Below, in pieces: positions 17,409-37,190 of a stretch of DNA of 37,190 bases. Origin of the DNA: Calditrichota bacterium (lineage in GTDB: Bacteria; Calditrichota; Calditrichia; Calditrichales; J004); NCBI GenBank assembly GCA_024277115.1, contig JAJRVW010000096.1:1-37190 (forward strand). The letters are read 5' to 3'. Within the stretch, counting starts at the first letter, position 1. Each line of letters begins with the position of its first letter. A model generated the notes under the pieces. The model was given only the letters and a program-made list of their open reading frames with translations, was not told the DNA's origin and ran no database searches. A program made the position numbers and the translations under genes.

Positions 17409-20400
17409 ATGTTTTTAAAGATAAAAATTAATCTAATTTTTCATTTGCTCTTTCTACTAGCCAGCCTAGGATATTCGCAACAGCCGCCAGCCAAAGCACT
17501 CAATTTTAAACACCTTAATATAAATGACGGCCTGTCACAAAATGCTGTTTATGCCCTGGCACAAGATCATTCCGGGTTTATTTGGATTGGCACAAAAGAC
17601 GGACTAAATCGTTACGACGGATATAATTTTACAATTTATAAACATAACCCAGCGGATAGCCATTCCATCTCAAACAACTCGATAACCGATCTTTTTGTGG
17701 ACAGCCGCGGTATTTTGTGGGTTGGCACCTTGGAAAAAGGCCTAAACCGCTTTGACCGAATTAACGGGACTTTTGAGCGTTTTGAACATAACCCATCACA
17801 ACCCAATAGTATCAGCTCCGATCGCATCGAAGAAATAAAAGAAGATTCGCAAGGAAACTTATGGATTGGAACTTATGATGGTTTAAACATGATCCCATCA
17901 AAAGCAATTACTTCCGATTCTGTTTCATTTATCTCATTTAAAGTTGAGGGTACAATCCAAAACGGTTTTAGTCCCAATAATATCATCTCTATGCGGGAAG
18001 ATGCAAAAAATGTTTTTTGGATTGGCACCGCAAAAGGCCTTTACAAATTAAACCTTAAATCTGACTACAAGACCAACAGCAAATTTGAACACTTTCCCAT
18101 CAAATTGCCTTATCCGATGGAGCCGCTCGACAAAGCAGTTTATTCCCTTTTATTGGACCGGAAAAATATTTTATGGGCCGGTTTGGCCACAGGCCTTGTT
18201 AAGATTGATCAGGAAACAGGCGCCTACACATATTATCCCCATAAATATAAGGCTTTTCGCAAAGGCTGGGGCGCGATTGTGGAAATGACTGAAGACGAGA
18301 GTGGAAATTTATGGATTGCCACTCCTACCGAATTGATGGTCTTTAACCCATCCGAAATCAGCTGGACTTCTTACCTCCACGATCCATTAAACCCGGAAAG
18401 CCTGAGTAGTAATGGCCTAACCAAGATTTTACGTGACAGATCCGGCATAATCTGGATTAGCAGCAATGGCTTTGGCGTCAATATTTATGATCCCCGCATG
18501 AACAGGTTTCCTACTTTCCGACCAGCGCCCGATTTTCAGACCAGGCATAAACGGTTTAGTATTTATTCTATTTTCGAAGACAAAGACAAAACACTTTGGA
18601 TTAATGGTGATGGCCTTTATAAATGGGAGAGGGAGACAGGCGTATTTAAAAGTTTTGAAACCGATCCGTACCACCCTCAGGATTTCGGCAATACCGGTGG
18701 CTGGTCGACCATCCAGGATAGTAGTGGATATATTTGGGTTGCCGGGCATGAAGGCCTTTATCGCTATGGTCCTAAAAAGCAAACCGTTAAACATTACACC
18801 GTAAAAAACGGCTTAAAGGAAAAAGTGACCTATCAGGTTTTTCTTGAAAACCAACATACAATCTGGATTGCAAGCGAAAATTATTTTAGCAAACTGAACA
18901 TTAATACAGGAGCATTTACACATTATCGATACAGGCAAAATCCGCGAAGACGCTATGTGCCCATCACCCATATTATTAAGGGCAAGCAGGGTTTTTTCTG
19001 GCTTGCCACCGATGACGGACTTGTACGGTTTAATCCCGAAAAGGAACAGTTTAAATATTACAGACATATCCCAAATAAAATAAACAGCCTTTCCAACAAC
19101 ATCGTCCTCTCAATCACAGCCGATCCTTTAAGTGACAGTATTTTATGGTTGGGGACTGCAGGCGGTGGCTTAAACCGCTTTGATTATAAGGCCAACTCTT
19201 TTAGTAGTTTTAATGAAGAAGACGGTTTACCCAATGATGTGGTTTACGCCGCCCTGCCCGATAAAAATGGCAACCTTTGGCTAAGCACAAACAAAGGCAT
19301 TTCGTGTTTTAACCCCAAAGAAAAAAGCTTCCGAAATTATGATATCCGGGATGGCCTGCAAAGTAACGAGTTCAATACCAGCGCATCTTTTTTAAGCAAA
19401 TCGGGCGAGATGTTTTTTGGCGGTATAAAAGGGATTAATTATTTCTATCCCGATAAAATTATTGACAATCCATACAAGCCCAATGTTGTAATAACAGGGA
19501 TGCGCCTTTTTAACCGGTCTATTTCCCACAAGTCGCACCCGGAAATTCTTGACAGCCTGATCACCTCCAAAAAAGAAATCAATCTCTCATATTTAGAGAA
19601 TGTGTTTAGTTTTAATTTTTCAGCATTGGATTATTCCTCGCCCGATCGCAACCAGTACGCTTACAGGATGATTGGTTTTAATGATGAATGGATTCCCTCC
19701 GGAACAGAGAGGAACGCCACCTATACAAACCTGCCGGCCGGGGAATATATTTTTCAGGTGAAAGGCTCAAATAACGATGGCGTTTGGAACGAAGAAGGAA
19801 CAAGAATAAGAATCATCATCACGCCGCCGATCTGGAAAACCTGGTGGGCATACGCTTTTTACCTGATTGTATTTCTTGCCCTGCTCTTTTATATAAGAAA
19901 ATACGAGATGAACCGTTTACAACTTAAAAGCCGCTTACAGGTAGAACAAGTTGAGGCAGACGGTTTGCGTCAATTGGACCAAATGCGCTCGCAGTTTTTT
20001 GCCAATATTTCCCACGAGTTCCGTACACCGCTTACTTTAATCCTTGGCCCGTTGGAAAATTTATATGACAAGGTTAAAAACGAGCAGCTCAAATTAAGCA
20101 TCAAAACCATGCAACGAAATGCCGGGCATTTATTAAAACTGATCAACCAATTGCTCGATCTCTCAAAACTGGATGCCGGAAAAATGAGTTTGGATATCCA
20201 CAAAAATGATATTATCCCTGTTGTGCGTGGAACAATAATGGCTTATAAGTCCCTGGCCGAGATGAAAAATATCCACCTCGAATTTTCGACCGAGTACAAA
20301 AAGCTAATCGCTGATTTTGATAATGAAAAAATTGAGACCATTATCAACAACTTACTCTCCAACGCCTTTAAGTTTACACCAACCGACGGAGAAATTAAGG

Positions 20401-21581
20401 TGGCAATTACGGTTTCATTGCAAAAGGAAAACAGACTTCTCATTAAAATTTCTGATAGTGGGAGCGGTATTTCAGAAGATCAGCAAAAAAACATATTTAA
20501 CCGTTTTTACCAGGTTGACGGCTCATCGAAAAGGATGCAGGATGGTACGGGAATTGGCCTTGCCCTGGTTAAAGAATTAGTGGAACTGCACGGTGGAAAC
20601 GTTGATGTGCAGAGCAAGCCGAATAGCGGCGCAACTTTTTCCATAGCCCTGCCAATCCTAAAAGAAGATTTAAAAAAATCAGAAAAATATGAATCCCTTA
20701 ACAAAGTTCAAATCGATGCCCTTAATGAAAGTGCCGAAGAGCTGGATACGCAGCAAGAACCGGACATCATCGAACAGCCATCACCAACCCCGAAAGAAGT
20801 TAAGGACAGTTTGCCCATCGTGCTGGTTGTGGAAGATAATAACGATGTACGCGCTTATATCCACGAACACCTGCAACATAATTTTAATGTTGTCGAAGCA
20901 AATGACGGCCAGGTGGGGGTCAAGGCCGCTATCGAAATTATCCCCGACCTTATTATCAGCGATTTGATGATGCCCAAAATGGATGGCTATGGTTTATGCA
21001 AAAAGCTTAAAACAGATATGCGTACCAGCCACATCCCGATTATCCTGCTGACCGCGCGGGCAGGCAGTGAAGATAAAATTGAAGGGCTGGAAACAGGCGC
21101 CGATGATTACCTGATAAAACCATTTAATTTTAAAGAGTTGATCGTCCGGGTAAAAAACCTGATCGATAACCGGCGTAAGTTGCGTGAACGTTTTAGTAAA
21201 CAAACGGAACTTAAGCCAGCAGAAATAAGCGTCAATTCCGCCGATGAGGTTTTCTTAAAAAAAGTTTTAGCCAGCATTGAAAATAATCTCGCAAATGAAA
21301 AATTTAACCTCGAATCACTTTCAAAAGATACCGCCATGAGCGAGCGGCAACTTCAGCGAAAAATTAAAGCCCTCACCGATCAATCCCCAAAACAATTTAT
21401 CCGCACCATGCGCTTGCAACGCGCCAACGAACTCCTCACAAAAAACGCGGCCACCATTTCCGAAATCGCTTATATGTGTGGTTTTGGCAGTGTCTCCTAT
21501 TTTACCCGTTGCTTCCGCGAACAATTTGGTATTACACCTTCCTCCGTGACGGGGAACGCGAGTGGCAGGAAGAATCAGTAG
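17409..21581 (+). CDS. Hybrid two-component system sensor/regulator (beta-propeller, Y_Y_Y, HisKA, HATPase, REC, AraC)
   Basis: This is a complete one-protein signalling chain of 1390 residues. Signal peptide about 1-23. Periplasmic propeller about 30-710, with some 13 repeats of the W-[IVL]-G-T-x-x-G-L-x-R-[YF]-[DN] type (two seven-bladed propellers). Y_Y_Y domain about 735-805. TM helix about 812-835. HisKA with ANISHEFRTPL (His near 866). HATPase with NLLSNAFKFTP and GTGIGLALVKEL. Receiver about 1137-1255, with phospho-acceptor Asp in LIISDLMMPKMDG (near 1184) and the lysine in YLIKPF. AraC-type HTH about 1297-1385. Such proteins usually sense a periplasmic ligand, often an oligosaccharide, and switch on nearby genes; no polysaccharide-use genes lie here. 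Unlike the later tandem sensors it lacks the inserted domain. Confidence 0.95.
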   Translation: MFLKIKINLIFHLLFLLASLGYSQQPPAKALNFKHLNINDGLSQNAVYALAQDHSGFIWIGTKDGLNRYDGYNFTIYKHNPADSHSISNNSITDLFVDSRGILWVGTLEKGLNRFDRINGTFERFEHNPSQPNSISSDRIEEIKEDSQGNLWIGTYDGLNMIPSKAITSDSVSFISFKVEGTIQNGFSPNNIISMREDAKNVFWIGTAKGLYKLNLKSDYKTNSKFEHFPIKLPYPMEPLDKAVYSLLLDRKNILWAGLATGLVKIDQETGAYTYYPHKYKAFRKGWGAIVEMTEDESGNLWIATPTELMVFNPSEISWTSYLHDPLNPESLSSNGLTKILRDRSGIIWISSNGFGVNIYDPRMNRFPTFRPAPDFQTRHKRFSIYSIFEDKDKTLWINGDGLYKWERETGVFKSFETDPYHPQDFGNTGGWSTIQDSSGYIWVAGHEGLYRYGPKKQTVKHYTVKNGLKEKVTYQVFLENQHTIWIASENYFSKLNINTGAFTHYRYRQNPRRRYVPITHIIKGKQGFFWLATDDGLVRFNPEKEQFKYYRHIPNKINSLSNNIVLSITADPLSDSILWLGTAGGGLNRFDYKANSFSSFNEEDGLPNDVVYAALPDKNGNLWLSTNKGISCFNPKEKSFRNYDIRDGLQSNEFNTSASFLSKSGEMFFGGIKGINYFYPDKIIDNPYKPNVVITGMRLFNRSISHKSHPEILDSLITSKKEINLSYLENVFSFNFSALDYSSPDRNQYAYRMIGFNDEWIPSGTERNATYTNLPAGEYIFQVKGSNNDGVWNEEGTRIRIIITPPIWKTWWAYAFYLIVFLALLFYIRKYEMNRLQLKSRLQVEQVEADGLRQLDQMRSQFFANISHEFRTPLTLILGPLENLYDKVKNEQLKLSIKTMQRNAGHLLKLINQLLDLSKLDAGKMSLDIHKNDIIPVVRGTIMAYKSLAEMKNIHLEFSTEYKKLIADFDNEKIETIINNLLSNAFKFTPTDGEIKVAITVSLQKENRLLIKISDSGSGISEDQQKNIFNRFYQVDGSSKRMQDGTGIGLALVKELVELHGGNVDVQSKPNSGATFSIALPILKEDLKKSEKYESLNKVQIDALNESAEELDTQQEPDIIEQPSPTPKEVKDSLPIVLVVEDNNDVRAYIHEHLQHNFNVVEANDGQVGVKAAIEIIPDLIISDLMMPKMDGYGLCKKLKTDMRTSHIPIILLTARAGSEDKIEGLETGADDYLIKPFNFKELIVRVKNLIDNRRKLRERFSKQTELKPAEISVNSADEVFLKKVLASIENNLANEKFNLESLSKDTAMSERQLQRKIKALTDQSPKQFIRTMRLQRANELLTKNAATISEIAYMCGFGSVSYFTRCFREQFGITPSSVTGNASGRKNQ

Positions 21582-25073: not shown

Positions 25074-25244
25074 ATGAAAACAATCGGGCTTATATTTTTA
25101 TACGACCAAATGAGAGAATCTTCTTTTGTAATACAAAAGCTCGAAAGCACAATAACATTAGAGGGAAAAATAAATGAAGCAGCCTGGAAAAAAATTGATC
25201 CCCTGCCCTGGTAACACATTGGCCGGAGTTTGGCAATACCGCTT
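25074..25244 (+). pseudogene. Truncated remnant of a CBM9/DUF5916-like protein gene
   Basis: ATG 25074 opens a 46-codon frame that begins MKTIGLIFL and contains STITLEGKINEAAWKKIDPLP, the typical opening of carbohydrate-binding family 9/DUF5916-like proteins. After TAA (25212-25214) a shifted frame continues with VTHWPEFGNT, as expected for the family. The gene is then replaced by dispersed repeat DNA. It therefore has one frameshift and has lost nearly all of its sequence. Intact relatives are large outer-membrane-associated proteins. The identification rests on a short motif, so it is moderate. Confidence 0.55.
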
Positions 25245-25437: not shown

Positions 25438-28400
25438 ATGACAAGCTATATTAAACTTATCAGCAGAGATGTAATCCTGATACTGATTTTATCAGCCTTC
25501 ACATCCGGCGCACTGGCCCAGAAGGGTGAATCATTCAAATTTGAAAGTTTTACTACAACTGACGGACTCTCCAATAATGCCGTACAGGTGGTCTATCAGG
25601 ATAGCAAGGGCTACCTATGGATTGGAACAGACGATGGGTTAAACCGATACGATGGTTACACTTTTACAGTTTACCGCAATGACCCAACCGACAGTACCAG
25701 CCTTAGCCAAAACTCAATCTGGACAATCTATGAAGATAATAAAGACCAACTGTGGATAGGCACAAAGGATGGATTATGCCTGTATAACAGGGACCACGAT
25801 AATTTTATCGTGCACAAATACCGGACGCCGAACCAAGTTACAAGCATAGGTGAATGGACAAATTCGATACTAAGCATTTATCAGGAAAGCGATGATAAAT
25901 ATTGGCTTTCCACAGTGATGGAAGGGATGGTCCTATTTAATCCGCAAACAAGTCAGTATGAATTTTTTCCACCCGATTGGATGATGAAGGAAGGTACCAA
26001 TTCCAATGTACTGATCCGTATAATCCCCGATAAATTATCTGCCGGTACAAAATTATGGGTGGCACGCTGGGCTCACGGCCTGGTCAGTTTTGATTTAAAA
26101 ACAAGGGAATATAAACGTTTTAAACATAATCCCCAAAACCCCAATAGCCTGGGGCATAACGAGTTACGAACCATTTATCAGCAAGATAATGGCATCCTGT
26201 GGATAGGTTCCCTTGGTGGCGGATTGGATAAATTTGATCCGGCCACAAGTGAATTTACCCATTTCCGGCACCGGCCAAATGATCTGCACAGCCTTAGTGA
26301 TGACAAAGTGCGGGATATTGTAGAAGATATGGACGACAAAAATATTTTGTGGATTGCAACGGAAAACGGTTTAAATAAATTTAATATCAGGGAAGAAAAA
26401 TTCAATCGATTTATAGGAGAAATTAATGTTCCGGGCGTGCTGAACAACAACGTGGTTACCAGCCTGCAATGGGATCGTGCGGGCGTTTTATGGATTGGGA
26501 CAAACGGCGGTGTAAACAAGATGAACCCATCGCAGATTGTTTTTAATGAGTATCTAAAAAACAAGGACATCAGCCTAAAGAACACAGAAATTTATGCAGC
26601 AAAACAAGACTTGAAAAATCCGGATCACCTTTGGATAGCAACCTACGGCGCCGGGCTCTATCGCCTGGACAAAAAAAAGAATTCGCTTGAACAATTTAAC
26701 GGGAAAAATACAAACGACGGGATCGCCAATGACAGCATCCGTACCATATATCTTGACCCTAAAGAAAATAACCTGGTCTGGATTGGAACATGGGGCGGTG
26801 GGCTTAGCCGCTATAATACAGATACCGGGCAATTTACAACCTTTAAAAATGACCCTAAGGACCCGGGGACAATTAGCACCAACAAGATACGCCGTATCTT
26901 TAAAAGTCGCGCTGGCGATTTGTGGATTTCCACGACGGGCGGTTTAAATTATTTTGATCGAAACAAAGAAACTTTTACCCGTTATCTGCACCAGGATACA
27001 AGTTACACAAAAGCATTGATGGCTTTTATTGAAGACAAAATAAGTGACAACCCACCGCTGGCATCCATCACAAAAGCCAGGGATTTTGAAGACAAAACAA
27101 TTCCATTTTCTCTGGAGAAGAAAACACGAATACTACTCACCGCAACAGGTGAAGGCGAAGACAAAATGTATGATTATGGCCTGTTACTGGACGAGGAAGA
27201 TAAAACCCTTTGGAAGATGAATGTGCGTGAAACCCGGCATGCCGGCGGTGGAGAGAAAAACCGCATTCAACTTTGGCTGGGGCTTCTGGAGAAAGGCGAC
27301 TACAAATTAAAGTATCGTTCGGACGACAGCCATGCGTATAATAGTTGGAATGTCCCTGCGCCTTCGAACCCGGAATGGTGGGGAATACAAGCACTTGCCC
27401 TATCAGAAGAAGACCATAAATTTATAGAGGCCAATTTACAAAAATATGAAAAGCCAAACAGTATTATTGCCAGCAGCACTACGGCTATAGAAGAAGACAG
27501 CTATGGCATGTTATGGATTGGCACAATAGGAAAAGGGTTGAGCAGGTTCGACAGGCGCATCGGCAAATTTACCAATTACAGTTATCAGTTAAATGACCCA
27601 AAAAGTCTTAGCAATAATCAAATTAATGATATGCTTCTTGATAAAAACGGAATTTTATGGATTGCCACGCAAGAGGGTTTAAACCGCTATGTGTACGAAA
27701 CGGATTCCTTTATTCGCTACACCATAAAAGACGGATTGCCCAATAATCATGTTGTCTCCATTTTGGCTGATGCGGATCATAAAATTTGGCTGGCCACGCT
27801 GGACGGCATTGCCCGCTTTGATCCCAACGATGTGCAAAAGGGCCACATACCAACATTTGTGAATTATACCAACCAGGATGGCCTGCCCTTTATTCAATTT
27901 AAAAGCGCCGCGAAAGAACTTAGAAATGATGGCGCGCTAATGTTTTCAGGTGATGGCGGCATTGTTACATTTTATCCTGGTGAATCAAACGCTATAAAGC
28001 CACAAACTGTCATTTCCGTATTTTATCTTTCTAATAATAAAGTTAAACCCGGTTCAGACACACCTCTTTCAAAAGCGATCGAAGAAACATCTGAAATAAA
28101 CCTGCCTTATGATCAAAATATCATCGCCTTCGAGTTTACCGCCTTGCATTTCGTCCGGCCCGATAAAAATAAGTTTCTCTATAAATTAGAGGGCTTTGAA
28201 AACGATTGGATCGACGGCAATAGACGCTATGCGCCCTACACCAATCTTGATCCGGGCGAATATGTTTTTCGCGTCAAGTCGGCCAATAGCGATGGCCTGT
28301 GGGACGAGGAAGGCACTTCGATCACCTTAAATATCTTTCCGCCCTGGTGGCGCACCTGGTGGGCTTATGGCGGTTATGGATTACTGCTACTTGGGATCGT

Positions 28401-29271
28401 TTTTGGCATTGACCGTTTTCAACGCCGTAGATTAATGGCTAAAACAAAGGAAAGAATGCGTATCCGTGAGATGGAACTACGCGCCGAGGCCGCCGAGTTG
28501 CAGGCCAAAGCATCCGATGCTGAACGTCGTGCCCTGGAAGCTGAAAACAAACGAAAATCTGAAGAATTAGAAGAAGCGCGCCAATTGCAGCTTTCTATGC
28601 TGCCAAAGGAACTACCACAACTTCCCCACCTTGATATTGCCGTATATATGCAAACCGCCACAGAGGTCGGCGGGGATTATTATGATTTTCATGTCGGGCT
28701 GGATGGTACATTAACAGTCGTTATTGGGGACGCCACCGGCCATGGCATGAAAGCAGGTACCATGGTCACCGCAGCCAAATCGCTGTTTAACAGTTATGCG
28801 CCCAACCCGGATATATTATTTTCTTTTCAGGAAATTACCCGTTGCATAAAACAACTCAATATGGGCAAGATGTCCATGTGCCTGACCATGCTCAAGATCA
28901 AAGGTGGGAAAATGCAAATTTCCACTGCAGGTATGCCGCCCTCTTTTATTTTTAGAGAGGATACAAAAGTAGTGGAAGAGCATCTTTTTAAAGCCATGCC
29001 TTTGGGCACCATGATGAAATTCCCCTACGAGGTAAAAGATACCACGTTAAAAAAAGGCGATACTATTTTGCTGATGAGCGACGGCCTGCCCGAACTGCAA
29101 AATGAGAAAGAAGAGATGTACGGTTATAAACGCATCCGCAACGGTTTTGAAGATGTGGCCGAAAAAGCCCCGGAAGAAATTATTACTTTTTTAAAAAATG
29201 AAGGCAAAGCCTGGAACAACGACCAGGACCCGGATGATGATGTGACCTTTGTGGTTATTAAGGTAAAGTAA
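25438..29271 (+). CDS. Beta-propeller sensor with SpoIIE/PP2C phosphatase output (array copy 1)
   Basis: The protein has 1277 residues. Signal peptide 1-27. Propeller units with W-[IL]-[GA]-T-x-x-G-L motifs: ten before and three after an inserted domain (about 522-673). Y_Y_Y domain about 890-965. TM helix about 974-995. Coiled coil about 1000-1055, rich in Ala, Glu and Arg. SpoIIE/PP2C phosphatase about 1060-1277 with the metal-site motifs GGDYYDF (near 1078), GDATGHG (near 1097), MSDGLPE (near 1212) and PDDDVTF (near 1266). A periplasmic signal is thus likely to control cytoplasmic Ser/Thr dephosphorylation, typically of a STAS-type anti-sigma antagonist; no such partner gene is present here. 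AAGGAA precedes the ATG. It is the best intact member of the tandem array. Confidence 0.93.
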   Translation: MTSYIKLISRDVILILILSAFTSGALAQKGESFKFESFTTTDGLSNNAVQVVYQDSKGYLWIGTDDGLNRYDGYTFTVYRNDPTDSTSLSQNSIWTIYEDNKDQLWIGTKDGLCLYNRDHDNFIVHKYRTPNQVTSIGEWTNSILSIYQESDDKYWLSTVMEGMVLFNPQTSQYEFFPPDWMMKEGTNSNVLIRIIPDKLSAGTKLWVARWAHGLVSFDLKTREYKRFKHNPQNPNSLGHNELRTIYQQDNGILWIGSLGGGLDKFDPATSEFTHFRHRPNDLHSLSDDKVRDIVEDMDDKNILWIATENGLNKFNIREEKFNRFIGEINVPGVLNNNVVTSLQWDRAGVLWIGTNGGVNKMNPSQIVFNEYLKNKDISLKNTEIYAAKQDLKNPDHLWIATYGAGLYRLDKKKNSLEQFNGKNTNDGIANDSIRTIYLDPKENNLVWIGTWGGGLSRYNTDTGQFTTFKNDPKDPGTISTNKIRRIFKSRAGDLWISTTGGLNYFDRNKETFTRYLHQDTSYTKALMAFIEDKISDNPPLASITKARDFEDKTIPFSLEKKTRILLTATGEGEDKMYDYGLLLDEEDKTLWKMNVRETRHAGGGEKNRIQLWLGLLEKGDYKLKYRSDDSHAYNSWNVPAPSNPEWWGIQALALSEEDHKFIEANLQKYEKPNSIIASSTTAIEEDSYGMLWIGTIGKGLSRFDRRIGKFTNYSYQLNDPKSLSNNQINDMLLDKNGILWIATQEGLNRYVYETDSFIRYTIKDGLPNNHVVSILADADHKIWLATLDGIARFDPNDVQKGHIPTFVNYTNQDGLPFIQFKSAAKELRNDGALMFSGDGGIVTFYPGESNAIKPQTVISVFYLSNNKVKPGSDTPLSKAIEETSEINLPYDQNIIAFEFTALHFVRPDKNKFLYKLEGFENDWIDGNRRYAPYTNLDPGEYVFRVKSANSDGLWDEEGTSITLNIFPPWWRTWWAYGGYGLLLLGIVFGIDRFQRRRLMAKTKERMRIREMELRAEAAELQAKASDAERRALEAENKRKSEELEEARQLQLSMLPKELPQLPHLDIAVYMQTATEVGGDYYDFHVGLDGTLTVVIGDATGHGMKAGTMVTAAKSLFNSYAPNPDILFSFQEITRCIKQLNMGKMSMCLTMLKIKGGKMQISTAGMPPSFIFREDTKVVEEHLFKAMPLGTMMKFPYEVKDTTLKKGDTILLMSDGLPELQNEKEEMYGYKRIRNGFEDVAEKAPEEIITFLKNEGKAWNNDQDPDDDVTFVVIKVK

Positions 29272-29285
29272 AGTATTATTAGAAT

Positions 29286-29314
29286 CGATGCCATCGCTTT
29301 AAGCGATGGCATCG
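29286..29314. repeat. Perfect R3 hairpin after array copy 1
   Basis: Arms CGATGCCATCGCTT and AAGCGATGGCATCG are exact reverse complements around one T, 15 bases after the stop codon. This can act as a terminator stem, although no T-run follows. A related hairpin is at 14699-14721. Confidence 0.85.
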
Positions 29315-29334
29315 GGGAATAACAACAAGGCCCT

Positions 29335-29371
29335 GTCATTCTGAGCGGAATACAATGGAGCGAAGAATCCC
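29335..29371. repeat. R1 repeat left arm between array copies 1 and 2
   Basis: GTCATTCTGAGCGGAAT...GAAGAATCCC is followed by CATTGTTTTATA, which also follows the R1 unit at 25245 (CATTGTTTTACA). A degenerate right arm follows to about 29425. Confidence 0.8.
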
Positions 29372-29469
29372 ATTGTTTTATAAGAAGAATCCTGTGGATT
29401 TCGCTAACTCGTCAGGACGGACAAGCACGATCAAGATAATAAAAATAAATTAAGCAGAACAGGTAAAAA

Positions 29470-32400
29470 ATGAATTTTAGAATAGCAATTTTAGCACTTT
29501 TAATTTTAACATCTTCCAGGCTAAGCGCCCAACGAAGTTATCTCTTTGAAAATATTTCTATCCCGGAAGGGCTCTCAAGTGTTGAGGTTCAATACATATT
29601 CCAGGACAGTAATGGATTTCTTTGGATATCAACAACAGATGGATTAGACCGCTACGACGGCTATTCGATGAAAGAATTCAAAAATGATCCAAACGATTCA
29701 ACAAGCATTGCTAAAAATTATACTGGCGCGATAACAGAAGACAAAGATGGATATATCTGGATAGGTTTAAATGGCAGCAATATAGTTACAAGGTTTAATC
29801 CGAATACAGAAAGCTTTAAAAGTTTTCCTTTGGAAACAGGCAATATTACAAATCAATCTGAATTTTATTCGGCCAAAACGGATGCGAGAGGTATTGTATG
29901 GTTCGCAACTAATAACCATGGTATGCAACGATTTAATAGATCAACAAATGAATTTGAAAAAATATATCTTGATACTACTAAAACAAACAATTTACGATGG
30001 GGTCAGGTCTATGATATTATTGAATTAAGAAATGGCAACATTCTGGCTTCTGATTATCAAAACGGAATAATGATATATAATGAGGACAGAAACCTATTTA
30101 CACCTTATCATCTTAAAACAAATTACAGCCCAAATGGAGTTGTAAAAATATATGAAGATAAAACCGGGAATATTTGGTTTGGAGGTCTTAAAAAACTAAT
30201 AAAATACGCGCCTTCTTATTATACAACGGAGAATTATAATATAAGCGAATTGTTCGAAGGGCAAATTAAGTATAGATATATTACAGGGATTACGGATGAT
30301 GATGATGGTTTTTTATGGCTGACTGTTTATTCTACAGGATTGTTCAGGCTGGACCCCAAAACAAAAAGTCTAAGAAAATATGATTTCAGTTATAGTAAAA
30401 GTGATATGGGGCAAAACATAACCTGGAAACTTTATAAGGACAGATATGGTGTTATATGGATAGGCACCTGGTTTGACGGTTTAACAAAGTTCGATCCACT
30501 CAGGGAACCCTTTAAGTTTACAAAGCTTAAAACCAATGCAAGGGTTGCATCAGGCGTGAACAAAGTAACTGTAATTGCCGGTTCTCAACAAGGTCATGAA
30601 ATAATAGTGGGAACAGCTGCACGAGGCCTTTTTACATACAACCATAAAAACAAAAAATCTACACATCTAAATCTAAAATTAAACCCGGCTACCCTGCAAG
30701 ACGGTACTATCAATATCCAGGCGCTAGTAAAAGATGGCAATGAAAATATTTGGTTTTCATTCAATAACCAGGGACTTTTTAAGCTGGAAAAAAACAACGC
30801 GCTTACTTCCATTGAATCACCAAATAAAAATAAAGCGTCTGTTTATACTGCAAATGATATGAAGGTTGATCTGTCTGGCAATATCTGGATTGCTTCACGT
30901 CATGGATTTGAAAAATACAACCCGACGAATCATACATTCTCGCTTTTGCCTACCATAATGAATAAACAAATGAGTGAAAATTTTAAACAAAAGTTACGGG
31001 ATATTCCCGAAAAACATGATCCAATTGCAACCATCACAAAAGTCGGTGAAGCCTCAAATCTGGAAAAAAGTTTCACACTAAACCAGGATCAGAAAATGCT
31101 AATTATTTGTGTTGGTGAAGGACGAATGACAGGCGGAAATAATGTACTTTATGATAAAGGTGCGTTATCAACTTTGACAGGAGAGAATATCTGGGCAATG
31201 AATGATTTATCAAAAACATTCAATGTTGGCGGCGGGTTTAAAAATCGTATCGCGATTAAATGCCTTGAATTAAAAAAAGGCGAATATAAACTTAGATTTT
31301 CATCCGATGTAGGACACTCTTACGGAAATTGGAATGTCAGAGCACCGCAGGATTCATCATGGTGGGGCATTCAAATTTTTAAGATTAACGATTCCGAATT
31401 CAAGAATATTAAAACCATAAATGAAAATGAAATTAATTCAGGTAAATACATGCCAATGGAAGTAGGTAACAGTATTGAAATTAGTAAGCGGTTACAAAAT
31501 GTGCTTTGGTTAGGTTCCTTTGCTAATGGATTTTTTAAATACAATCTTGCTACAGGTGCATACAAACAATTTAACTTTAATAGTAAGAATGTATTTTCTA
31601 CAACTAATAATATTTCTTCTATAATTGAAGATAGGGACGGTATTGTTTGGATTGCCACCTCGAGCTCCCTGCTTAGATTTGATCCAGGAACAGAAAAAAT
31701 TGATACATTTGATAAAAAAAGTGGCTTGGTTTCAAATCAAATTAGCTCAATTATTGAGGACCTTCAAGGAAATCTTTGGATCAATACTTCATCCGGCCTG
31801 ACAAAATTGAATAAGAACGCCCCTAAAGAAAAATGGAGTTTTGTCAGCTTTAACACATCTGATGGCTTACCCGGTTACAGTTCCAGTAAAGCCAAATGGA
31901 TTACTGAAAAGGGTGAAATTATTTTAGGAAGTAATGACGGCTTAGTTTCATTCTTTCCGGGAAAGATTAATGTTACCCCGCCTGATATTGTTATTGATGA
32001 TATAAAAATTTCAGACATTTCCCTTAAATCAGATTCAGTAGACGTAAAGATTGAAACAAGCATAGCAAAACTAAAAGATATTGACCTTGCTTATAATCAG
32101 AACAATCTCGCATTTGAGTTTTCATCCATTCATTTTTCAAGACCGGCCAAAAATAAAATTTTATACATGCTGGAAGGTTTCTCCAATAACTGGAAAACTT
32201 CAGACAGAAACTTTGCATCCTTCACTAATTTGGACCCTGGCGCTTATACTTTCCGAGTTAAAGGGTCAAATGGCTATGGCATCTGGAATGATGAGGAGAG
32301 ATCAATGCAAATCAATATTTCTCCACCATGGTGGCTTACATACTGGGCCTATTTTGGATATTTTCTTATTGCAGTATTGATTATTTTTAGTATTGACCGG

Positions 32401-33192
32401 ATTCAACGGGCACGTGTTAAGGCGCAGGAAAAACACCGCGCTGAATTGGCCATCCTGGAAGCTGAAAATGAGCGCAAGTCCATAGAATTGGAAGAAGCAC
32501 GCCAATTGCAACTTTCTATGCTTCCAAAAGAGTTACCGCAACTACCCAATCTGGATATTGCCGTGTATATGCAAACCGCAACCGAGGTCGGCGGGGATTA
32601 TTATGATTTTCATGTCGGGCTGGATGGTACATTAACGGTCGTTATTGGGGACGCCACCGGCCATGGAATGAAAGCCGGGACCATGGTCACCACGGCCAAA
32701 ACCCTTTTTAAAAGTTACGCTTCCAATCCCGATATTCTGTTCTCTTTTCAGGAATTTACCCGCTGCATAAAAGAAATGAACATGGGTAAACTTTCCATGT
32801 GCCTGACCATGCTCAAGATCAAAGGTGGGAAAATGCAAATTTCCACCGCAGGTATGCCGCCCTCTTTTATTTTTAGAGAGGATACAAAAGTAGTGGAAGA
32901 GCATCTTTTTAAAGCCATGCCTTTGGGCACCATGATGAAATTCCCCTACGAGGTCAAAGATACCACACTCAAAGCCGGCGATACTATTTTGCTGATGAGC
33001 GACGGCCTGCCCGAACTGCAAAACGAGAAAGAAGAGATGTACGGTTATAAACGCATCCGCAACGGTTTTGAAGATGTGGCCGAAAAAGCCCCGGAAGAGA
33101 TTATTGCCTTTTTAAAAAATGAGGGAAAGGCTTGGAACAACGACCAGGCCCCGGATGATGATGTGACCTTTGTGGTAATTAAGGTGAAGTAA
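29470..33192 (+). CDS. Beta-propeller sensor with SpoIIE/PP2C phosphatase output (array copy 2)
   Basis: The 1240-residue protein has the same architecture as copy 1: signal peptide about 1-21, propeller units, inserted domain about 495-660 between units 10 and 11, Y_Y_Y about 875-950, TM about 955-977, coiled coil, and phosphatase from about 1020 with GGDYYDF near 1041, GDATGHG, MSDGLPE and PDDDVTF. The propeller is strongly diverged from copy 1, with several WIGT motifs altered (WFGG, WLTV, WFSF), and its DNA looks more AT-rich. The phosphatase part is nearly identical to copy 1 even at silent positions. This points to different ligands feeding one common output. Ribosome-binding sequence before the ATG is weak. 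Confidence 0.93.
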   Translation: MNFRIAILALLILTSSRLSAQRSYLFENISIPEGLSSVEVQYIFQDSNGFLWISTTDGLDRYDGYSMKEFKNDPNDSTSIAKNYTGAITEDKDGYIWIGLNGSNIVTRFNPNTESFKSFPLETGNITNQSEFYSAKTDARGIVWFATNNHGMQRFNRSTNEFEKIYLDTTKTNNLRWGQVYDIIELRNGNILASDYQNGIMIYNEDRNLFTPYHLKTNYSPNGVVKIYEDKTGNIWFGGLKKLIKYAPSYYTTENYNISELFEGQIKYRYITGITDDDDGFLWLTVYSTGLFRLDPKTKSLRKYDFSYSKSDMGQNITWKLYKDRYGVIWIGTWFDGLTKFDPLREPFKFTKLKTNARVASGVNKVTVIAGSQQGHEIIVGTAARGLFTYNHKNKKSTHLNLKLNPATLQDGTINIQALVKDGNENIWFSFNNQGLFKLEKNNALTSIESPNKNKASVYTANDMKVDLSGNIWIASRHGFEKYNPTNHTFSLLPTIMNKQMSENFKQKLRDIPEKHDPIATITKVGEASNLEKSFTLNQDQKMLIICVGEGRMTGGNNVLYDKGALSTLTGENIWAMNDLSKTFNVGGGFKNRIAIKCLELKKGEYKLRFSSDVGHSYGNWNVRAPQDSSWWGIQIFKINDSEFKNIKTINENEINSGKYMPMEVGNSIEISKRLQNVLWLGSFANGFFKYNLATGAYKQFNFNSKNVFSTTNNISSIIEDRDGIVWIATSSSLLRFDPGTEKIDTFDKKSGLVSNQISSIIEDLQGNLWINTSSGLTKLNKNAPKEKWSFVSFNTSDGLPGYSSSKAKWITEKGEIILGSNDGLVSFFPGKINVTPPDIVIDDIKISDISLKSDSVDVKIETSIAKLKDIDLAYNQNNLAFEFSSIHFSRPAKNKILYMLEGFSNNWKTSDRNFASFTNLDPGAYTFRVKGSNGYGIWNDEERSMQINISPPWWLTYWAYFGYFLIAVLIIFSIDRIQRARVKAQEKHRAELAILEAENERKSIELEEARQLQLSMLPKELPQLPNLDIAVYMQTATEVGGDYYDFHVGLDGTLTVVIGDATGHGMKAGTMVTTAKTLFKSYASNPDILFSFQEFTRCIKEMNMGKLSMCLTMLKIKGGKMQISTAGMPPSFIFREDTKVVEEHLFKAMPLGTMMKFPYEVKDTTLKAGDTILLMSDGLPELQNEKEEMYGYKRIRNGFEDVAEKAPEEIIAFLKNEGKAWNNDQAPDDDVTFVVIKVK

Positions 33193-33206
33193 AGTATTAT
33201 TAGAAT

Positions 33207-33217
33207 CGATGGCATCG
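33207..33217. repeat. Collapsed R3 hairpin after array copy 2
   Basis: The flanks match those of the perfect hairpin after copy 1 (AAAGTATTATTAGAAT before, ATAACAACAAG after). Only CGATGGCATCG remains, consistent with deletion of 18 bases between two CGATG direct repeats of the full element. Confidence 0.7.
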
Positions 33218-33237
33218 GGGGATAACAACAAGACCGT

Positions 33238-33590
33238 GTCATTCTGAGCGCAAAGCAGTGAAGCGAAGAATCCCCTTTTTTCAATGATAGGATGTTGAAT
33301 CAAGTTCAACATGACGGACAACTTTGTCATTCTGAGCGCAAAGCAGTGAAGCGAAGAATCCCCTTTTCACTGACAGGATGCTGAATCAAGTTCAACATGA
33401 CGGACAACTTTGTCATTCTGAGCGGAATGTAATGGAGAGAAGAATCCTGTGGCTGTCGCAGTAGGGATGCTTCGTTCCTCAGCATGACAAGCTTTACTTA
33501 AGAGAATGTTGATCCTTGATAAGGGGCATAGGGGGATGACAACAAGGCCGTGTCATTCTGTACCGAAAGTAGTTGAGTGATGAATCCTTA
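33238..33590. repeat. Tandem cluster of R1/R2 composite repeats between array copies 2 and 3
   Basis: R1 left arms (GTCATTCTGAGCG) start at 33238, 33326 and 33412, a spacing of 88 and 86 bases; a diverged fourth starts at 33552. The first two units end in an R2 element (GATGTTGAATCAAGTTCAAC, then ATGAC) instead of the R1 right arm. The third has a proper R1 right arm ending at 33488. No gene was seen from 33193 to 33710. The units are too few, too hairpin-like and not spaced by unique spacers, so this is not a CRISPR array. Confidence 0.85.
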
Positions 33591-33710
33591 AATAACCTAA
33601 TTTTGATAGAATAAATAATCATGCATATTTGTTATAGAACTTTAGTTTGTTTTATTTTGCCTTACCTTACCCAAAAAACCACATTGATCCCATCAATCGG
33701 AGCCAATTCT

Positions 33711-36700
33711 ATGAAACGTATTTTTTATATATTGATAATCATTTTTTTGATAGCAACCGGAAGCACCTTTGCCCAAAATGATGACCTAATCTTCGAGCGT
33801 ATCAATACCTCTCATGGCCTATCCAATAATACTGTAAAAAAAACCTTACAGGATAGCAAAGGTTATTTATGGATTGCCACACAAGACGGCCTGAATAAGT
33901 ATGACGGTTATTCATTTATCACTTATCGAAATGACCCACAGGATACCACAAGCCTAATCAATAACTCGGTCTGGGACATCCACTAAGACAAAAAAGGAAA
34001 TTTATGGATTGGCACAGAAGGGGGATTAAGCAAATACAATCCTGAAACGGAAAGTTTTAAAAATTATAAATATGTGCCTATTCCAAACATCCCATTATCA
34101 GCCCGGCAATGGGCAAATGCAGTACTCTCTATTTGCGAGATAGATAGTATCTATTTATGGTTGGGGACTATCTTTAACGGCTTAACAAAGTTCAATGTCC
34201 AATCCGGGCAATTTACACATTTTCTTCCGGACACGATTGCTGCCGACAATGTAGTTTTATGGATAATTGGTGACAACCATAATAAAAATTTATTATGGTT
34301 TGGGAATGGAAACAGGAATGATTATGGTTCTTTTAATATTTCTGAACAACGCTTTAGCATAACAGACGGGCTGGGTAAAAAGCTAAATGATGGCAGGACA
34401 TTTTCCATGTTTCAAGACTATAAGGGAATACTTTGGATAGGGACAGAAATGGGGGGGCTGATTAGCTACGATCCAAAAGAAAAACATTATATCCATTTTA
34501 AGCATGATCCGAAGAATCCTGAAAGTATAAGCACTGGTGGTATCTGGGACATTTTTAAAGACCCTGACAAAAAGGATATTTTTTGGATTGGCACACAAGG
34601 CGGTCTAAACAAATTTGATATAAAAAGCAAAAAATTCACCCATTATAACTCAATTATTCAGGATCCCACTACCCTAAGCTCTGATTTTGTCTGGAATACT
34701 TATAAAGACCGCGCCGGGGTTATGTGGGTAAGCACATCTGGCGGATTGAATAAAGTTGATCCGGGGCGCGTCCCCTTTCACAATTATAAGCAGATCGCAG
34801 GCAAGAACAGCCTTAATAATGATTTTGTTGCCGGGTTAACATCCTCCCTCGCCGATAAGAATTTAATCTGGATTGGCACACGAGGCGGTGGGCTTAACCG
34901 TTTTGACCGCAAAACAAACACATTCACTTATTATAAGCATGACCGTAAGAACCCAAGTTCAATTTCCGGCGATTCAGTCTTAGCTGTTTATGAAGACCCT
35001 GACGAAGCCGGTGACTTTTTATGGATTGGTACCTGGGGCGCCGGGTTAAACCATTTTGATATTAGAAACAACCGTTTTAAAAAATATAAGATGAATAGCA
35101 CTGACCCGACAACGCTAAACAGCAATGTAGTGCGACGTATTTATAAAACGCGCGATGGCGCTTTATGGTTGAGCACTTCATCCGGTGTAAGCAAATTTGA
35201 CCGCTCCAAAGGTAGTTTTACCCGTTACCTGCAACGGGATACCTCCTACGTGGACGAAATACAAAAGCTGCTTATCGATTTGGTTAATCAAAGAGAACCC
35301 GTCTCTTCAATATTAAAAGTTGGAGAAGATGCAAACCGGGTACAATCCTTCAATTTAACAACTACGCAAGAACTACTGATAATCGGGATGGGTGAAGGCC
35401 TAACCACTATGTACGATTTTGGCTGGCTTGAAGATGGTAATGGTAAAAAAATCTGGGAGATGGATTATAAGCAAAGCAAGCATGCCGGCGGTGGAGAAAA
35501 AAACAGATTGCAAGTTGGTTTGCTTTCTCTAAAACCCGGTACTTATAAATTACATTACAAGTCAGATATTGGACATTCCTACCAAAACTGGAACACACAG
35601 CCCCCAGAACATCCCAATATGTGGGGCATCCAGCTTTTCAGTTTAGATAAGCAAGAAAAGAACCTTGTAACCCGGAATATAAATAAAATTAATAAACCAA
35701 ATTCTATCGCCAGTGGCAACGTAACTGAAATTTTGGAAGATTCTTACGGAATGCTCTGGATGGCAACTTATGATGGCGGATTGAGCCGCCTGGACAGGAA
35801 GAGCGGTCTTTTTACAAATTTTATAAATAATCCTTCGCAAATGACCAGCATAAGCAGTAACCAGGTAACCAGTTTGTACGAAGATAAAATCGGTTCCTTA
35901 TGGATTGGTACAAATAACGGTCTGAATAAATATGATCCGGGAAGCAGAACGTTTAAGTCATGGTATGTAAAAGACGGCCTGCCCTCCAATACAATTATAA
36001 GTATCCTTGAAGATAGTGATGGAAACTTATGGCTGGCAACCGGTAATGGTATTTCAAAATTTGACCCGGAGGATGAAACGGATCATGGCGGTCTCACCTT
36101 TATCAATTATGGCATTCAGGATGGCTTGCAGTACAATCAGTACTTCAATAATTCAAAACACCGTGCAGCCAATGGCGAAATGTTTTTTGGCGGGTTTGGC
36201 GGGTTTGTCTCATTCTTTCCAGGTAAAAAGAACCCTTTGCCACCACGTACAATAATCTCAAAATTTTTATTATTTAACCAGGAAGTTCATCCCGGAGAAG
36301 ATTCCCCTCTACAAAAACCGATTAGCGAAAGTAAGGAAATTGAGTTGTCTTATAATCAAAATGTATTCTCGTTCGAGTTTACCGCCCTGCACTTTTCACG
36401 CCCGGAGAAAAACTTATATTTGTACAAAATGGAGGGTTTTGACAAAGACTGGATCGACGGCCATCGCCGCTTTGCACCCTACACCAATCTTGACCCCGGC
36501 CTGTATACATTTCGTGTAAAAGCGGCCAACAGCGATGGCGTTTGGAACGAGGAAGGGGCATTGGTTAAAATTAATATTTCGCCTCCCTGGTGGCGCACAT
36601 GGTGGGCCTATACCGGATATGTGCTTTTATTGGGCCTTCTTATTTTTGGATTCGATCGTCTTCAGCGAAAGCGCATGATAGCAAAGTCAAAAGAGCGTTT

Positions 36701-37190
36701 AAAAATGCAAGAGGCAGAGCATCGCGCGGAAGCAGCAGAATTACAGGCGCAAGTGGCCGAAGCGGAGAATGCACGTAAAACAAAAGAGCTGGAAGAAGCG
36801 CGTCAACTCCAGCTTTCCATGCTGCCCAAAGAATTACCACAATTGCCTAACCTGGATATTGCCGTATATATGCAAACGGCCACAGAGGTCGGCGGGGACT
36901 ATTATGATTTTCACGTGGGCTTGGATGGCACATTAACTGTTGTTATCGGAGATGCAACCGGCCACGGCATGAAAGCCGGGACGATGGTCACCACGGCCAA
37001 AACCCTTTTTAAAAGCTATGCATCCAACCCGGACATTCTGTTTTCTTTTCAGGAATTTACCCGCTGCATAAAAGAAATGAATATGGGCAAACTTTCCATG
37101 TGCCTGACCATGCTCAAGATTAAAGGTGGTAAAATGCAAATTTCCACCGCTGGCATGCCGCCCTCTTTTATTTTTAGAGAGGATACAAAA
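33711..37190 (+). pseudogene. Beta-propeller sensor with SpoIIE/PP2C output (array copy 3), in-frame TAA, cut by window end
   Basis: The start is placed at ATG 33711 (MKRIFYILIIIFLIATGSTFAQ, a clear signal peptide, with GGAG upstream) rather than at 33621. The frame stops at TAA 33984-33986 after SVWDIH. The same frame then stays open to the window end, more than 1000 codons. Copy 1 has Glu at the matching place (IWTIYED), so GAA to TAA is the simple explanation. Downstream are the remaining propeller units, inserted domain (about nt 35240-35700), Y_Y_Y (about 36355-36580), TM (about 36600-36660), coiled coil (about 36670-36800), and a phosphatase with GGDYYDF and GDATGHG, ending mid-domain. 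It is recently broken, misread in the sequence, or expressed as an internally started or read-through protein. Confidence 0.85.

Follow-up and report, generated by a model that had tools for sequence, protein, structure and literature searches.

Three described signalling systems each resemble one part of the locus reported here, a tandem array of propeller-SpoIIE genes that begins in a 37,190-nucleotide stretch of DNA (the window) from a deep-branching bacterium, a member of the Calditrichota (assembly GCA_024277115.1, contig JAJRVW010000096.1, positions 1 to 37,190 of the forward strand). The RsbU-RsbV-RsbW partner switch of Bacillus shares with it the PP2C fold and catalytic motifs of the phosphatase, the coiled-coil linker, and the linked STAS and RsbW-like genes. 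The hybrid two-component systems (HTCS) of Bacteroidetes share its ectodomain, a Reg_prop propeller with a Y_Y_Y domain followed by a transmembrane segment, and the sensor of the first array gene matches the solved Bacteroides HTCS ectodomains 4a2l, 3v9f and 3ott by sequence comparison. Finally, the chemoreceptors Tlp2, Tlp3 and Tlp4 of Campylobacter jejuni, whose signalling domains are identical and whose sensory domains share only about 30% identity (PMC9769880), are likewise paralogous receptors with a common signalling end and divergent sensors.

The array differs from RsbU-RsbV-RsbW in its tandem periplasmic propeller sensors, in the absence of an adjoining sigma factor, and in placing many inputs beside one switch in one genome. 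Unlike HTCS, it has a SpoIIE phosphatase as output instead of a histidine kinase, receiver and AraC domain, and most of its sensors carry an insert of ~150 amino acids. Whereas Tlp2, Tlp3 and Tlp4 are three chemoreceptors, the array comprises up to nine tandem phosphatases with a linked switch, mapped exchange tracts, and an incongruence between sensors and outputs that was assessed with the approximately unbiased (AU) test. The Tlp receptors are a precedent for the pattern itself. What the present case adds is the size of the array, an output that is a phosphatase with a linked switch, tracts that have been mapped, and the repetition of the pattern in more than one phylum. In the literature we searched, no paper combines propeller sensors with SpoIIE phosphatases or describes propeller-SpoIIE arrays, and the arrays seem to represent a type of many-input partner switch that has not been described before. 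We consider a many-input partner switch the most likely identity of the array, and we assign a probability of roughly 0.7 to the whole explanation, by which the outputs of a many-input array are homogenised by gene conversion and drive one linked STAS/RsbW switch.

Extent and architecture of the array

The window is contig C36 of a 4.97-Mb assembly in 255 contigs. The original prediction described three adjacent propeller-SpoIIE genes on one strand, and all three are present with Reg_prop, Y_Y_Y and SpoIIE matches in Pfam: genes A (25438-29271) and B (29470-33192) are complete, and gene C, with its start at 33711, is truncated by the end of the contig. The array nevertheless goes beyond three. 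The final 136 bases of the window recur without a mismatch at either end of contig C63 and again where the reversed contig C138 begins; that contig ends meet at one exact phosphatase repeat is the outcome expected of an assembler faced with near-identical tandem copies. C36-C63-C138 is the simplest contig path, the sole alternative at the 136-bp node leaving C63 as a separate circle, and C138 in turn overlaps C73. In the sequence joined in this way about nine tandem propeller-Y_Y_Y-transmembrane-coiled-coil-SpoIIE genes, the upstream third of them in the window, are accompanied by one relative with a cytosolic sensor.

The joined order, all on one strand, runs from A to G through two amidohydrolase-like genes to H and I. 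Downstream of I follow J, a phosphatase whose front end is cytosolic and resembles SnoaL/GAF, and then, on C73, a cassette of an RsbW-like kinase (HATPase_c_2), a STAS protein and a GAF-SpoIIE phosphatase. The two amidohydrolase-like genes, which lie on C138 and break up the array, include one, the second, that is split across two frames. The sister species G001 has the same layout within one 589-kb contig, where six propeller genes and one J-type gene end in the same cassette; in another family of the class (L015) a single propeller gene is followed by the cassette. Array composition varies among related genomes, and among the 40 Calditrichota genomes compared, multi-copy arrays with closely similar outputs are confined to the family of the window.

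The array outputs contain a SpoIIE/PP2C domain with its metal-binding aspartates, and the catalytic and core residues are invariant across phyla in our alignment, with SDGF read in other phyla. Sequence comparison relates the output to RsbU of Rv1364c and to SpoIIE, and at the level of fold the structure model made for the output of B resembles RsbU of Rv1364c, RssB, SpoIIE and SiaA. In this model, one continuous 64-residue helix (residues 7-70) is predicted to run from the membrane side into the PP2C domain. No HisKA, HATPase, receiver or AraC domain was found by Pfam in A, B, C, H or I.

Exchange among phosphatase ends

Mean pairwise nucleotide identity among genes A to H is 0.47 upstream of about position 28550, in the sensors, and 0.87 downstream of it, in the outputs, and the shift takes about ten codons. 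Identity is therefore far from uniform along the genes, and the sharp step that the original prediction named as a sign of conversion exists, but it is found at the junction of coiled coil and phosphatase and not at the boundary between transmembrane segment and coiled coil; it coincides with the end of the coiled coil, ~50 codons past the transmembrane segment, inside the predicted continuous helix. Differences at four-fold degenerate sites range from 0.60 to 0.79 between sensors, near saturation, and from 0.18 to 0.59 by pair between whole outputs, averaging about 0.4. The suggestion that the outputs match even at silent sites thus holds for tracts and not for whole outputs. The 161-bp pair in A and B from which it arose does contain exactly one difference, at 28926 (T/C).

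Silent identity within the outputs is arranged in runs. The summed-squared-run statistic is 10475 compared with 6754 +/- 300 (maximum 8119) after permutation (130 silent polymorphic codons, 2000 permutations), and the silent-identical runs occupy different places in different pairs, codons 13-58 in D/E, 88-134 in C/F and 120-154 in A/B (pair p-values from this test, as in Table 1, are uncorrected over 28 pairs). The 3' parts of C and F in the tract and tree tests hinge on the contig path, and the C/F tract itself is independent of it. In gene I, array-like ends flank an unconverted phosphatase core that is only 40-60% alike, and I groups with J in the trees. A hairpin directly 3' of gene A recurs in the same or nearly the same form after E, F, G and H, in diverged form after I and as a half-copy after B, and the common sequence therefore extends beyond the stop codon. 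We interpret these patterns as showing that, within each genome, short gene-conversion tracts from other array members have replaced sequence in the PP2C ends again and again, over a region that begins in the final turns of the signalling helix and closes shortly after the stop codon, while the sensors keep separate, older histories.

Comparison among Calditrichales genomes points in the same direction. The sensor tree pairs A with G3_a, C with G1_a, H with G1_b, and G1_d with G3_b, each with 100/100 support, whereas the output tree joins G3_a with G3_b (99/96) and places the six G1 copies together (96/98). Forcing the four sensor pairings on the outputs was rejected by the AU test (p=2.6e-4, 0.031, 0.0014 and 1.7e-5; all four together, 2.4e-41). 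The more conservative SH (Shimodaira-Hasegawa) test rejected A with G3_a, G1_d with G3_b and all four jointly, and did not reject C with G1_a alone or H with G1_b alone. Phosphatase copies, which under the opposite outcome would each have grouped with a different species, group by genome instead, and such within-genome clustering is seen in three Calditrichales genomes. G3_a and G3_b, with sensors only 33% identical in amino acids, differ at 0.11 of four-fold sites in their outputs, compared with 0.35 between the orthologous outputs of A and G3_a. Across the converted part, paralogues are thus more alike than orthologues and their identity is tract-like, which is the pattern by which gene conversion is recognised. 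Most of the sensors, by contrast, are of old descent, as judged from orthologues that can be clearly recognised in other genera and even phyla, and their divergence predates the array; to speak of sensors diversifying within it, as was done initially, is misleading. Four-fold sites differ by 0.51 between the sensors of A and G3_a (contig C79, L012 from 7873, of G003, a genome from the family of the window) and by 0.83 between the RsbW-like genes that accompany them, which suggests that gene A moved between genera by transfer.

The same signature recurs in another phylum. In Ignavibacteriota, L018_92 and L018_3744, which lie inside a 254-kb contig (DYHH01000003), have sensors 29% identical and output DNA 97% identical; over the first 40 codons the outputs are 82.5% identical, and over the remaining 193 codons 100%, a shift that bears the mark of a conversion breakpoint inside the phosphatase. 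Conversely, L046_387 and L018_10823 have sensors 78% and outputs 55% identical, and each output has a 76-82% match in its own genome. Among 62 genes from multi-copy genomes, 26 have their nearest output in their own genome and 2 have their nearest sensor there. All 24 discordant cases are output-local, against none the other way, although the sign-test p-value on them is only indicative because genes of one genome are not independent. This pattern of nearest relatives across genera and phyla indicates that outputs, not sensors, are locally unified. Concerted evolution of the outputs by repeated short gene conversion, one of two origins that had been proposed for them, is thus strongly supported by the non-uniform identity and the genome-wise output trees.

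The other proposed origin, a very recent duplication in which one phosphatase end was copied to several sensors in a single burst, would explain the sharp identity step and the 91-100% amino acid identity among outputs A to H. We reject it as highly improbable, as it is contradicted by the spread of silent divergence: the four-fold differences are far too large, tract positions vary by pair, gene I retains its unconverted core, and the within-genome clustering is repeated in three genomes. An assembly artefact, in which collapsed repeats make outputs look identical, stands no better. Contigs of the window's genome do break exactly in the repeat, and a G003 contig also ends inside the phosphatase, but the A/B and D/E tracts are internal to contigs and the array of the sister genome and the Ignavibacteriota pair lie within contigs of 589 kb and 254 kb, and this explanation too is rejected. 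Slimmer still are the chances that the likeness of the outputs is due to nothing but purifying selection and codon bias. They would fit the invariant catalytic and core residues across phyla, yet they cannot make silent sites resemble those of a neighbour over those of an orthologue (0.11 vs 0.35), nor create a significant run structure, and the AU test and the four-fold sites lead us to reject them as the only cause.

More weight, if still on the unlikely side as the explanation of the whole, attaches to the idea that horizontally acquired propeller genes cross over in the conserved phosphatase and so splice new sensors to the resident output. The nearest relatives of several sensors are in other genera or phyla, array make-up differs among related genomes, and the sensors of A and G3_a have diverged less than the RsbW-like genes beside them. 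A single crossover, however, would leave one breakpoint with all downstream sequence resident, whereas the observed tracts are internal and have different partners, and gene I is array-like on both flanks of its core. Such capture of sensors probably operates alongside conversion, not in its place.

The probable linked switch and a model of signalling

The RsbW, STAS and GAF-SpoIIE genes that end the array in the window's genome and in G001 also adjoin propeller-SpoIIE genes in Ignavibacteriota and Chlorobiota loci, and RsbW relatives of this kind were found at 24 named loci. From the architecture of the array and its gene neighbourhood, both of which are read directly from sequence, we infer each signalling step of the following model. 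A ligand, by analogy to HTCS probably an extracellular polymer or oligosaccharide, would alter the dimeric propeller, and this change would travel via the transmembrane segment and the coiled coil to the PP2C domain, a transduction step that is backed by the coiled-coil mechanism published for RsbU-type phosphatases (PMC12143880). The phosphatase would then dephosphorylate the STAS protein of the array, and the STAS protein would capture the linked RsbW-like kinase, thereby freeing the target of the kinase. Conversion would keep every output matched to one STAS/RsbW pair, so that any sensor could drive the same switch. Expansion and contraction of the array were probably also driven by the repeats in its spacers and by the phosphatase DNA, which is nearly identical among its members.

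Several observations weigh against this model of a converted array that drives one linked switch. A neighbour-family search found no sigma factor or other conserved target gene family beside the RsbW-STAS cassette, and the three Sigma70_r3 matches in the genome are all on other contigs. An adjacent sigma factor is also missing from some known partner switches. The genome has further STAS and RsbW-like genes, and the pairing with the array is therefore by neighbourhood only; the original proposal of alternative inputs feeding a common signal is strengthened by the linked genes outside the window. Beyond the window the array depends on contig joins (the exact 136-bp overlap, used twice, and a 347-bp overlap of 99.1% identity between C138 and C73). 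Homogenisation is weak in G001 except between c and d and was not seen in several Ignavibacteriota arrays (L047, L055, L046_4168), and some of the same signature would be produced by the recombination of incoming sensors with a resident output.

If the array is indeed a many-input switch with converted outputs, many different inputs could drive what looks like one shared switch, and it is predicted that every phosphatase of one array acts on one STAS protein, perhaps poorly on that of another genome. Recombination of sensors and outputs in the evolution of signalling is usually deduced by comparing distantly related proteins; in this array the boundary of exchange can be seen at base resolution, falls in a predicted continuous, signal-carrying helix and recurs in another phylum. 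It is tempting to speculate that old propeller lineages move between Calditrichota and Ignavibacteriota genomes, dock by an RsbW-STAS switch and have their phosphatase converted to the local version. This extension is tentative; if correct, new inputs would fit the resident switch without new interface mutations.

Other features of the locus

Table 1 Positions of array genes and associated features in the window.
Feature	Position	Strand	Basis or remark
HTCS gene: propeller-Y_Y_Y chassis as in the array, with histidine kinase, receiver and AraC as outputs	17409..21581	+	
Gene A sensor part: signal peptide, propeller repeats, inserted beta-sandwich module, Y_Y_Y, transmembrane segment, coiled coil	25438..28569	+	Pfam; HTCS ectodomain relatives
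Inserted module of ~150 amino acids in A	26995..27453	+	Predicted beta-sandwich; model made on B copy
Gene A output: SpoIIE/PP2C phosphatase with conserved catalytic Asp motifs GGDYYDF, GDATGHG, SDG, DDDVT	28570..29271	+	Pfam; alignment; fold match
Probable conversion tract, copy in A	28873..29033	+	One difference from B copy; longest A/B silent run, permutation p=0.009
Perfect 11-bp-stem hairpin GATGCCATCGC-TTTAA-GCGATGGCATC	29287..29313	+	Directly 3' of gene A
Gene B sensor part	29470..32490	+	Closest paralogue E on C63, 61-62% amino acid identity
Inserted module in B	30961..31434	+	Structure predicted, pLDDT 96
Gene B output (SpoIIE/PP2C)	32491..33192	+	Pfam; structure model
Probable conversion tract, copy in B	32794..32954	+	
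Spacer repeat TGTCATTCTGAGCG...GAAGAATC, three copies at 33237, 33325, 33411	33237..33446	+	
Gene C sensor part	33711..36791	+	In-frame TAA inside
Gene C output, truncated by contig end	36792..37190	+	Pfam
136-bp exact repeat inside phosphatase, at contig end; site of assembly break	37055..37190	+	Exact match to C63/C138 ends

The inserted module, which interrupts the propeller, is present in the sensors of A to G and absent from H and I, and about half of 77 related sensors carry one. Its invariant positions are G-E, D-x-G, K-N and D/H/N. No Pfam family matched it above cut-off, and its fold matches, to jelly-roll or GOLD-like folds, are weak, with a best TM-score by query length of about 0.4.

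Further copies of the spacer repeat lie at 25244, 25350 and 29334. This 36-bp interspersed repeat has 56 copies in the genome (<=3 mismatches), of which 24 are in array spacers in the window, C63, C138 and C73, all in gene orientation, where ~0.5 would be expected; because the copies cluster, the formal significance of this enrichment is overstated. The repeat may aid array expansion.

The stop codon in gene C, at 33984-33986, comes early in the gene at a place where the orthologue G1_a and the paralogue A read Y-E-D, and marks either a pseudogene or a sequencing error. Despite it, the phosphatase of gene C has a 146-bp tract identical with F. Upstream of the array, the HTCS gene listed in Table 1 has a counterpart in position in G003, where a 1396-residue open reading frame is similarly placed upstream of the array.

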